A DNA stretch of 45,915 nucleotides from contig VBLC01000058.1 of NCBI GenBank assembly GCA_005879315.1, forward strand, positions 1 through 45,915, given 5' to 3'. This DNA is from Deltaproteobacteria bacterium. GTDB taxonomy: Bacteria > Myxococcota > Myxococcia > Myxococcales > 40CM-4-68-19. The translations under genes and the position numbers were made by a program. The notes beneath the pieces are model-generated. The model made no database searches and was not told the DNA's origin. It saw only the letters and a list, made by a program, of their open reading frames with translations. Numbering within the stretch: position 1 is the stretch's first letter; each line of letters starts with the position of its first letter. This document shows positions 23,103 through 25,927 of this stretch, one piece after another.

Positions 23103-23660
23103 ATGCCCGAGGCGCTGCGCAACTTCGCGGTCCAGGCGTTTGGCACGGCGCTGCTCGCCGCGCTGCTCGGCGCGGCGGCGCTGGTGGGTCCTGCCCTCTG
23201 GCGCAACTCGCGCGCCCTCGAGCGCGCCGCCGAGATCGAGCAAAGGCTTCGCTCCGACGATCCCGGTTCCCTCCTGCCCGCGCAAGCGGACGTCGAGGCG
23301 CAGCTCCGGCAGCTGGAAGCTGCGGTGCCGGCCGAGCGCCGCGACCTCGAAGTGCTCGATCGCCTGCGCGCCGCCGCCCGCAACGCCGGGGCGCTCAACG
23401 TCGAGGTCGCAGCCGAGGGCGGCGCTCGCGTCGCGCCCCCGCGGCAGCGGCTCGAGAGCGCGACGCTCTTCACCCGCGAGCCCGCCCAGCTGCACACCGC
23501 CGTGATGACGATGGCGGGCGAATGCCACTACGGCGAATTCCTCGCCTTCCTCGATCGCCTGGCGCACGAGCCGGGACTGCATTCGCTCGAGTCGGTCTCG
23601 CTCGAGCGCCGGCCGCCCCGCGTCTCCTGGAGGCTCACCCTGAAAGCGGCCCACTGGTGA
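23103..23660 (+). CDS. PilO/GspM/MshJ-like inner membrane protein
   Basis: 185-aa bitopic protein: N-terminal membrane helix (FGTALLAALLGAAALVGPAL), coiled-coil stretch (NSRALERAAEIEQRLRSDDP, VEAQLRQLEAAVPAERRDLE), then a ferredoxin-like end with MTMAGECHYGEFLAFLDRLA, which matches the GxYxxLxxFLxxL pattern of PilO. It would pair with the PilN part of the upstream protein in the alignment subcomplex that joins secretin and platform. It starts 4 nt after the previous stop and overlaps the next by 4 nt. Confidence 0.78.
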   Translation: MPEALRNFAVQAFGTALLAALLGAAALVGPALWRNSRALERAAEIEQRLRSDDPGSLLPAQADVEAQLRQLEAAVPAERRDLEVLDRLRAAARNAGALNVEVAAEGGARVAPPRQRLESATLFTREPAQLHTAVMTMAGECHYGEFLAFLDRLAHEPGLHSLESVSLERRPPRVSWRLTLKAAHW

Positions 23661-24121
23661 ACAAGCGGCTCCTTTGGCTGCTCCTCGGGGGAGCGATCCT
23701 GGTGACCGCGCTGCGGTTCGCGGTCGACCGGCCTCGCCCGCAGCGGCCCCGCCAGTTGCCCCCGCCGGCCGCCGCGCCGGCCCCGCGGCCCGCGAGGATG
23801 CTGCCCAAGCTCCTGCGCGATCCCTTCCTCACTCCCGCGGAAGAGGCGGCGCTGACGAGAGTGCCCGAGCCTCCCAAGGCAGTCCGCGCAGCGCTGCGCG
23901 TCGAAGCGCTGGTGGTGCCGAGCGACGGCCGCCGCAAGGTGGCCATCGTCAACGGCCATGCCTACGCGGAGGGCGAGCGCATCGGCGAGGAGACGCTGGC
24001 CGTGATCGCGGCCGATCACATCGAGCTGGTCTCGCCGGCAGGAATGCGCCGCACCCTTTCCTTCGACGAGGGCGCCCCCGTCTGGCCGGTCCGCTCGGAA
24101 AAGCGCGCGCAGGGCCGCTGA
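23657..24121 (+). CDS. PilP/MshK/GspC-like periplasmic protein
   Basis: 154-aa protein with GTG start at 23657 (GTGA overlap with upstream stop). A membrane anchor (RLLWLLLGGAILVTALRFAV) is followed by a Pro/Ala/Arg-rich linker and a short beta domain (VEALVVPSDGRRKVAIVNGH, YAEGERIGEETLAVIAADHI, ELVSPAGMRRTLSF) that resembles the homology-region fold of GspC, PilP and MshK, which contacts the secretin. No lipobox is seen, so GspC/MshK-like anchoring fits better than lipoprotein PilP. It is the last gene of the operon. I see no terminator hairpin with a T-run after it. Confidence 0.72.
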   Translation: MNKRLLWLLLGGAILVTALRFAVDRPRPQRPRQLPPPAAAPAPRPARMLPKLLRDPFLTPAEEAALTRVPEPPKAVRAALRVEALVVPSDGRRKVAIVNGHAYAEGERIGEETLAVIAADHIELVSPAGMRRTLSFDEGAPVWPVRSEKRAQGR

Positions 24122-24130
24122 ACCACCGCG

Positions 24131-24481
24131 TCAACATGATTTGCGGCTCAGCGCAGTGAGCAGCGCATAGAGCCGAAGTCCGACAGACGAAATGCCGCTT
24201 GCGGACTCCGGACTGCAATATCCTGCTGCGGCCGCGACATCGATTGCCGCCGCAGCCTCGCAGGCTTCACCGCGCGCTATCCCGTAGACGCGGGCTTTAT
24301 CCGCGTTGCTGACGCGGCCAACCGCCTCTGCGATGTTGAGGCACACGCTCATCGCAGCGCGCATCGCCTGGTCCCGCAGCTTGGAGTCGGCGATCTTCGC
24401 TGCGCGCACGAGAACCACCAGTTCGCGAGCGACCTGATACGCGATGAGATTTTGGTGAGGCAAAGCCGTCCAGTTCGCCAT
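24131..24481 (-). CDS. Four-helix-bundle protein, S23/IVS-like (Avd-related fold)
   Basis: 116-aa protein of the four-helix-bundle family first found in 23S rRNA intervening sequences and related in fold to the Avd protein of diversity-generating retroelements. The pattern is typical: NLIAYQVARELVVLVRAAKI, DSKLRDQAMRAAMSVCLNIA, EAVGRVSNADKARVYGIARG, EACEAAAAIDVAAAAG. The start at ATG 24481 has a good ribosome site (GAAGGAGG). The gene is visibly richer in A/T than both neighbours. Its start and ribosome site lie in one arm of a perfect 22-bp inverted repeat, and a 14-bp tandem repeat lies upstream, which suggests arrival by transfer. The molecular role of stand-alone members is not known to me. 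No reverse transcriptase is near. Confidence 0.82.
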   Translation of the reverse strand: MANWTALPHQNLIAYQVARELVVLVRAAKIADSKLRDQAMRAAMSVCLNIAEAVGRVSNADKARVYGIARGEACEAAAAIDVAAAAGYCSPESASGISSVGLRLYALLTALSRKSC

Positions 24482-24532
24482 TCGTCGGCCTCCTTCACAA
24501 ACGCGCAGCGAGGAGGCCGACGAATGGCGAAC
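24473..24532. repeat. Perfect 22-bp inverted repeat over the four-helix-bundle start
   Basis: Arms 24473-24494 and 24511-24532 are exact reverse complements (right arm begins AGGAGGCCGACGAATGGCGA), separated by a 16-nt loop. The left arm holds the ribosome site, start and first codons of the minus-strand gene; the right arm holds the same ribosome site and start on the plus strand, where ATG 24524 opens only a 15-codon frame. Transcribed, it would form a long hairpin covering the ribosome site. Confidence 0.93.
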
Positions 24533-24754
24533 GGACGACGATCCCAAGTCCGCGCGAGCGCAGCGAGCTAGAAGGAAGAGCCAGCGAGAAAGCTGCAGCC
24601 GCAGTGACAGCGCCGCAGGCGCTGGCGCGAGGCTGCCAAACCGAGAACGAGAAGCTGAGAACGACAGCCCGAGAACGAGAACCCGAGAACGACAGCCCGA
24701 GAACGAGAACCCGAGAACGAGAACTCGAACCTTCGCTCTTAGAGGAGTCCCGAC
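24482..24754. other. Gene-free stretch between the four-helix-bundle gene and metK
   Basis: No credible gene is seen in these 273 bases. They hold the right arm of the inverted repeat, a short palindrome AGCGCC-GCA-GGCGCT at about 24609-24623, the 14-bp tandem repeat, and the bases downstream of the metK stop at 24755. The base composition is purine-rich on the plus strand in the right half. Confidence 0.7.
24640..24723. repeat. Tandem repeat, six 14-bp units
   Basis: Units at 24640, 24654, 24668, 24682, 24696 and 24710 follow CCCGAGAACGAGAA or CCCGAGAACGACAG; the first two units differ slightly at their left ends. Every unit contains GAGAACGA. The end alternates GAGAA and GACAG in units 1-5, and the last two units both end GAGAA. 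There are no unique spacers, so it is a minisatellite and not a CRISPR. Confidence 0.92.
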
Positions 24755-25927
24755 CTACGCCGCGCCCTTGAGCCCCGCCGCCTGCCGGAGCGCCTCGGCC
24801 CGGTCGGTCCGCTCCCAGGTGAACTCCGGCTCGCTCCTGCCGAAATGGCCGTATGCCGCCGTCTTCTCGTAGATGGGCCGGAGCAGATCGAGCTCGCGGA
24901 TGATCGAGGCGGGCTTCAAGGAGAACGTCGCGCGCACCGCCCGTTCGATCTGCTCCTCCGGCACCCGGTGCGTCCCGAAAGCCTCGACCATGATCGAAAC
25001 CGGCTCGGCCACGCCGATGGCATAGGCAACCTGCACTTCGCAGCGCCGCGCGAGGCCGGCCGCGACGACGTTCTTCGCCACCCAGCGCGCCGCGTAGGCC
25101 GCCGACCGATCGACCTTCGAGGGATCCTTCCCGGAAAAAGCGCCGCCGCCGTGGTGGCCCATGCCGCCGTAGGTGTCGACGATGATCTTGCGGCCCGTCA
25201 CGCCCGAGTCGCCCATCGGCCCGCCGATGATGAAGCGGCCGGTGGCGTTGATCATCCGCTTCATCTCCGGCGCGCGCAGCTCCGCCGGCACCACCTTGTC
25301 GATCACTTCCGCGCTCACCGCCTCGCGCAGCTGCTCGGTGGAGACCGAATCCTCGTGCTGCGCCGCGATCACCACCGCCTGCACCTTGTGCGGCCGCCCG
25401 CCGCGGTACTCGACGGTCACCTGGCTCTTTCCGTCGGGGCGGAGGAACTTCAGCTCGCCGCGGCGGCACTGCGCCAGCCTGCGCGTCAGCCGGTGCGCTA
25501 GCGCGATGGGCAGCGGCATCAGCTCCGGCGTCTCGTCGCAGGCGTAGCCGAACATCATCCCCTGGTCGCCCGCCCCCTGCTCCTTGGAAGCGGAGGAGTC
25601 GACTCCCATGGCGATCTCGGGCGACTGCTGCTCGACCGCGACCATCACCGCGCAGCTGCGCGCGTCGAACCCCATCGAGCCGTCGTTGAAGCCGATGCGC
25701 TCCACGGTGCGGCGGACGATCTCGGCGTACTTGAGGTTGGCGCGGGTGGTGATCTCGCCGATGAGGAGGACGAGGCCGGTCTTGACCGCCGTCTCCAGCG
25801 CCACTCGGCTCTGCTTGTCCTGGCGCAGGCAGTCGTCGAGCACCGCGTCGGAGACCTGATCGCAGATCTTGTCCGGATGGCCTTCGGTGACCGATTCGGA
25901 GCTGAAGAGCGCATCGCGCAGCTGCAT
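24755..25927 (-). CDS. metK: S-adenosylmethionine synthase
   Basis: Makes S-adenosylmethionine from methionine and ATP; 390 aa, normal length. Signatures are [20 protein letters not shown] at the start, the hexapeptide region [20 protein letters not shown], the [20 protein letters not shown] loop followed by [20 protein letters not shown], and the end [13 protein letters not shown]. It lies 56 nt after ptsI on the same strand. That gap is too short for a typical SAM riboswitch and none was seen. Confidence 0.95.

Follow-up and report, generated by a model that had tools for sequence, protein, structure and literature searches.

For decades, inserts in 23S rRNA genes have been known to encode S23/IVP proteins, whose role is not agreed on, and many genomes annotate their gene merely as a 'four helix bundle protein'. 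One such gene lies in a stretch of 45,915 nucleotides from a Deltaproteobacteria bacterium (order Myxococcales in the GTDB lineage; assembly GCA_005879315.1, contig VBLC01000058.1), referred to here as the window. Comparison with related loci suggests that the segment holding this gene belongs to a family of short mobile elements of bacteria, as a copy truncated at its 3' end. The sole gene of these elements encodes the S23/IVP protein, which is proposed to take part in their movement. We put the probability of this reading at about 0.6.

The closest described systems are the intervening sequences of 23S rRNA genes in Leptospira and Coxiella (PMC4990558), which share with the present elements a PF05635 protein, a selfish character and patchy distribution, and a gene lying within complementary ends that form a long stem. 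The mobility of rRNA intervening sequences is itself an old proposal (Ralph and McClelland 1993, cited in PMC4990558). Contrary to these sequences, the elements described here sit in gaps between protein genes and occur in many copies per genome. They additionally carry a conserved hairpin with the internal loop CGCC/GTCA, a palindrome at the gene start, simple-repeat arrays and, in some cases, target duplications. The window locus, lying between a secretion-cluster gene and metK and not inside a 23S rRNA gene, gave no Rfam match.

Three other systems show partial similarities. Avd, from diversity-generating retroelements, is likewise a four-helix bundle, its subunits in 8ub7 matching the IVP fold with a TM of about 0.75; however, the window genome has no reverse transcriptase (no RVT_1 match), and no sequence-level Avd match was found among PDB chains. 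The REP systems of Y1 (RAYT) transposases also have a gene flanked by small hairpins that form inverted pairs, an intergenic location and solo copies elsewhere, but here the enclosed gene encodes IVP instead of a Y1 transposase, and all 13 Y1 matches of the window genome lie more than 2 kb from any intact IVP element. Miniature inverted-repeat transposable elements (MITEs) are likewise short, with terminal repeats, target duplication and internally deleted palindromes, whereas the IVP elements carry a conserved gene under purifying selection and no parent transposase with the same ends was found in the window genome.

A protein search of the window genome, a draft of 125 contigs with 97.55% completeness, located IVP genes at about 17 places, i.e. 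some 16 beyond the window gene, several of them near contig ends. At least nine of these copies fall in two close subfamilies, and their aligned flanks share a unit reaching well past the gene. In gene direction, the order of parts is simple-repeat array, CGCC/GTCA hairpin, start palindrome and IVP gene. Complete copies continue 3' of the gene either with a hairpin and array in inverted orientation or with another IVP unit that faces the first one. The full element of the window genome measures about 0.75 kb (761 and 779 bp in two copies) and is bounded by terminal inverted repeats. Other copies build this recurring kit from different sequences, the array unit varying by lineage: CGAGAAC in the window, and GGGAAA, GAAAAGGAG, GACCGC or GTGCTC elsewhere. 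The gene is enclosed by complementary stem-forming ends in about one third of the other loci, where the complementarity between the two flanks is higher than at any random placement (maximum 31) and reaches scores of up to 132.

Some copies depart from this plan. In L002 the IVP frame continues into the 3' array, giving a His-Glu-rich tail. In L250 (G001:C193), outward-facing hairpins at 1117-1161 and 1255-1299 flank an array with no IVP gene, reversing the usual order, an arrangement that is perhaps the junction of two elements. A separate pair of 180-bp inverted arms, 84% identical and about 0.7 kb apart, was seen in G000 (C50:144966-146020), with no link to IVP.

The family is patchily distributed. 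PF05635 is found in 24 of 60 genomes (the window genome and relatives), with a maximum of 13 copies in a relative, and a closed relative, G033, carries four near-identical paired elements at four sites (L077-L080). These copies differ in detail: their IVP ranges from 133 to 166 aa, owing to an N-terminal, in-frame Ser-Pro simple repeat of variable length, and L080 holds an additional palindrome-rich insertion of about 200 bp between its facing IVP genes, absent from the other three. Part of the right flank of L078 (G033:C1, near 3593900-3594400; query 609-748) has roughly fifteen matches in each of G035 and G043, and looks like a piece of a multi-copy family of HNH-endonuclease-like genes. A scan of named genomes yielded 80 loci, nearly all from Myxococcota or from records labelled just Deltaproteobacteria, Anaeromyxobacter oryzisoli and A. 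terrae among them. A hit in Bacteroidota was noted as well. A phage, plasmid or viral origin was rejected, as phages, plasmids and viral contigs gave no IVP match; assignment to a defence or phage protein family was rejected because neither PADLOC nor PHROGs gave a match. Searches of the open-licence literature turned up no account of IVP elements dispersed in this way, and the family is, as far as could be found, previously undescribed.

Several hallmarks of insertion accompany these copies. One of the G033 insertion sites is empty, with neither gene nor array, in two genomes of the same genus, and another is empty in one. Several copies of the window genome end in CAATGCC-type terminal repeats; the inverted repeats are paired in four placed copies and partly degenerate in others. 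Target duplications were scored in six copies, the window copy not among them, with 10, 9, 9, 8, 7 and 7 matches out of 10 bp (single-case chance rates 0.00005, 0.0017, 0.0017, 0.012, 0.067 and 0.067); some of the flanks are near-palindromic, which makes a direct repeat hard to separate from an extension of the terminal repeat, the 10/10 case being unaffected. Internally deleted palindromic derivatives of the element are also present. Of the 15 copies that could be scored, ten occupy a gap between convergent genes, often within a few bases of both stop codons, as judged from gene calls that rest on codon-position GC content. These elements thus form a structured family, dispersed in many copies, that shows selection on its IVP gene and signs of insertion. 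The sequence-only reading that preceded this analysis had taken the segment for a small mobile or formerly mobile unit, and the number of genomic places, the empty sites, terminal repeats, target duplications and deleted copies lend it good support.

The palindrome over the ribosome site and ATG of the window gene had been noticed in that reading as an exact 22-bp inverted copy, and so it is, with a spacer of 16 nt. Its stem score is 22, while 150 control ATGs in the window never score above 7, and an equivalent palindrome is present at 36 of 52 IVP starts. Could these palindromes be chance, or assembly artefacts of a GC-rich genome known as a draft in 125 contigs, with several copies near contig ends? 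The scores of the control ATGs speak against it, and such arms are found again, in 35 distinct forms, in further genomes, one of them closed, the whole architecture being found in this closed genome and in Anaeromyxobacter isolates as well. The artefact reading is already refuted by these independent genomes. The mirrored arm opens a rightward ATG with a frame of 15 codons, again as first described; this frame is a by-product of the inverted repeat and shows no evidence of being a gene.

The CGCC/GTCA hairpin consists of an outer stem (GCAGCC/GGCTGC), the internal loop and an inner stem (AGCGC/GCGCT), and in the window it sits between the array and the gene start. A covariance-model search of the 60 genomes returned 57 matches in 12 genomes at E<=0.001. 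Within 700 bp of an IVP gene lie 48 of the 57, a number that is partly given by construction, since several of the 19 sequences used for the model came from the searched genomes. These 48 comprise 39 upstream on the same strand, nine downstream on the opposite strand and none in any other arrangement. Genomes free of IVP have no match, with one weak exception (G040). Neither this absence nor the orientation rule follows from the construction of the model. A known RNA family was rejected, since 12 scanned loci gave no Rfam family match at E up to 0.5. The sequence-only reading had suggested movement by hairpin or homing-like action. The strict order and orientation make hairpin action plausible, but homing-like movement finds no support, as neither a recurrent target gene nor a nuclease within the element was seen.

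Both structures show strong compensatory change, with 22 doubly changed cells against 4 in shuffles for the start palindrome, and 87 against 22 among the hairpin model matches. G-U pairs are nearly absent: the 35 distinct start-palindrome pairs hold 728 Watson-Crick, 3 G-U and 22 mismatched positions (the stems having been located by Watson-Crick scoring, which perhaps under-counts wobble-rich ones), and the hairpin set has 3 G-U in 454 cells. Since selection on an RNA helix alone should leave room for more wobble, hairpins and start stems are probably kept at the DNA level, be it as a cruciform, as a folded single strand or by copying between the arms. This weighs against a selfish RNA-type element, whose transcript would form a long stem, the IVP sequence being its loop, and spread by reverse transcription with an enzyme acting in trans. 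Such an element would fit the protein family and long terminal stems, as in the 23S intervening sequence of Coxiella (PMC4990558), the fold shared with Avd of the reverse-transcriptase complex, and the leader, which, folded as RNA, is far more stable than shuffles (z=-6.1). Terminal repeats and target duplications, however, indicate DNA ends, and no reverse transcriptase family match occurs in 11 of the 14 genomes with three or more IVP genes, the window genome among the 11. Dependence on a reverse transcriptase was rejected on this co-occurrence, and we consider the RNA-type element improbable.

With a leader that also folds well as RNA, the start palindrome may control translation of its own gene, which the sequence-only reading took it to silence. 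It could also be asked whether nothing more is at work, i.e. whether IVP is a static regulatory or structural gene, with the palindrome serving as autoregulated translation or an operator switch and the family grown by ordinary duplication and host selection. The frequency of the palindrome at IVP starts, its strong compensatory change and a low ratio of nonsynonymous to synonymous substitution (dN/dS) would all agree with this. Duplication, though, leaves the empty sites, terminal repeats, target duplications and differing flanks unexplained, and this origin appears very unlikely.

The window protein is, as the sequence-only reading had it, a four-helix bundle, as borne out by profile matches (TIGR02436, E=3e-17; PF05635, E=1e-16), by an AlphaFold model with four helices (pLDDT 93) and by Foldseek, which places the S23 structures 2gsc and 2rld closest and the Avd subunits at a greater distance. 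It passes the curated cut-offs of both families (61.4 vs 33.8 bits for PF05635, 62.7 vs 24 bits for TIGR02436), and the gene is a member of the S23/IVP family. Between intact copies of the two close subfamilies of the window genome, dN/dS is mostly 0.03-0.14, with higher or unstable values in more divergent comparisons and among the very young G033 copies. The protein is selected while copies multiply. It is therefore preserved during spread, which a pure passenger would not need.

This last point bears on a further alternative, in which the segment is a MITE-like DNA element that is not autonomous and relies on an ordinary transposase supplied in trans, and IVP is a useful passenger, benefiting the host or regulating the element, with no part in movement. 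Terminal repeats, duplications of about 10 bp and deleted palindromic derivatives are indeed typical of MITEs. Against this stand the purifying selection maintained in many separate copies and the hairpin, tied to the IVP gene by order and strand in 12 genomes despite unrelated arrays. Moreover, a terminal-repeat pattern search of the window genome found no ordinary insertion sequence with shared ends, DDE transposases not having been surveyed. We regard a mere passenger as unlikely, if a more serious contender than the RNA-type element.

The sequences show that copies insert mainly in gaps between convergent genes, where they duplicate about 10 bp of the target. As to how they would move, IVP would be a basic oligomer that binds nucleic acids, as its fold relative Avd is. 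It would bind the hairpins of its own element, thereby acting in movement, and may mark or fold the DNA for a strand-transfer enzyme working in trans; through the start palindrome it may also regulate how it is itself translated. A Y1 transposase that recognises hairpins, or else repair enzymes of the host, would be the best candidate for the enzyme. A bolder version, which we hold only tentatively, is that of a new class of mobile elements, in which the non-catalytic IVP is a mobility factor that recognises the CGCC/GTCA DNA hairpin and directs insertion, with its duplication of about 10 bp, between convergent genes, and of which the 23S intervening sequences would be cousins trapped in rRNA.

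No transposase or nuclease is recognisable within the element, and Y1 transposase, acting in trans, remains a candidate: all 14 genomes with three or more IVP genes have a Y1 match (Fisher p=0.007 for presence among the 60 genomes, kinship ignored). From HUH enzymes one would not expect target duplications. Several points weigh against the proposed mobility. The correlation of Y1 with IVP, with kinship likewise ignored, vanishes without the IVP-rich members of the window genome's own genus (rho 0.17, p=0.21), and four IVP-bearing genomes, with one or two copies each, have no Y1 match. IVP has no recognisable catalytic site, clear paired terminal repeats exist in only a few copies, and for two of the six target duplications the ends were set by eye. 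The covariation sets for hairpin and start stem were partly picked for pairing, a bias lessened only by the later model matches. Movement was not observed in these sequence comparisons, and we infer the mobility of the window copy, which has neither terminal repeat nor 3' arm, from its relatives.

Table 1. Features of the window locus and its neighbours (positions in the window).
Feature	Position	Strand	Remarks
Left neighbour	23522..24121	plus	Coordinates of the listed open reading frame; translation may in truth begin nearer 23660
Whole inserted unit (putative)	24122..24754	none	Occupies all of the space between two convergent genes, stop codon to stop codon
IVP/S23-family four-helix-bundle gene	24131..24481	minus	116 aa; ATG at 24481, stop TGA 24131-24133
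Start-site inverted repeat, gene-side arm	24473..24494	minus	Spans ribosome site (about 24489-24495) and ATG (24479-24481)
Start-site inverted repeat, mirrored arm	24511..24532	minus	Exact complement of gene-side arm
Mirrored ATG and 15-codon frame	24524..24571	plus	Ends with TAG, beginning at 24569
Conserved CGCC/GTCA hairpin	24591..24639	minus	Covariance model R1, 61.5 bits, E=1.1e-11
Minisatellite	24641..24728	none	14-bp unit in 28-bp pairs (CCGAGAACGAGAAC CCGAGAACGACAGC); unrelated units at the equivalent place in other copies
Right neighbour, S-adenosylmethionine synthetase (metK)	24755..25927	minus	

The features of the locus itself are collected in Table 1. The left neighbour, which has no Pfam match of its own, is the final gene of a cluster of type II secretion / type IV pilus type, and nine bases separate the end of the IVP gene from the stop codon of this neighbour. 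The unit has no 3' hairpin, no 3' repeat arm and no CAATGCC-type terminal repeat; the lack of a 3' arm is read from a flank-to-flank complementarity score of only 14, the window copy not being enclosed by stem-forming ends. It is probably a 3'-truncated element, a stranded half that keeps the 5' hairpin and an intact gene, and, its 3' end being lost, it is probably immobile. The array, earlier described as six 14-bp units some 110 nt further on, comprises 6.3 copies of that unit, a 28-bp higher-order unit fitting better, and begins 109 nt past the second arm of the start repeat.

The segment, with a GC content of 62-67%, is clearly less GC-rich than its left side (about 70-78%), as had been claimed for both sides; the difference is less clear on the right, where metK starts at about 66-68% before climbing to about 70%. 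Among relatives whose metK end could be read, not one carries IVP at this position, and the unit is thus not one that all relatives share at the same site. Synteny past metK is lost even within the genus, and the comparison thus gives the absence of the unit and no exact junction.

If IVP genes are indeed the cores of mobile elements, a large family of annotated but unexplained proteins would gain a function, and the long-standing idea of mobile rRNA intervening sequences would become directly testable. The relation to Avd would, in turn, tie the spread of these elements to the accessory proteins of retroelements.
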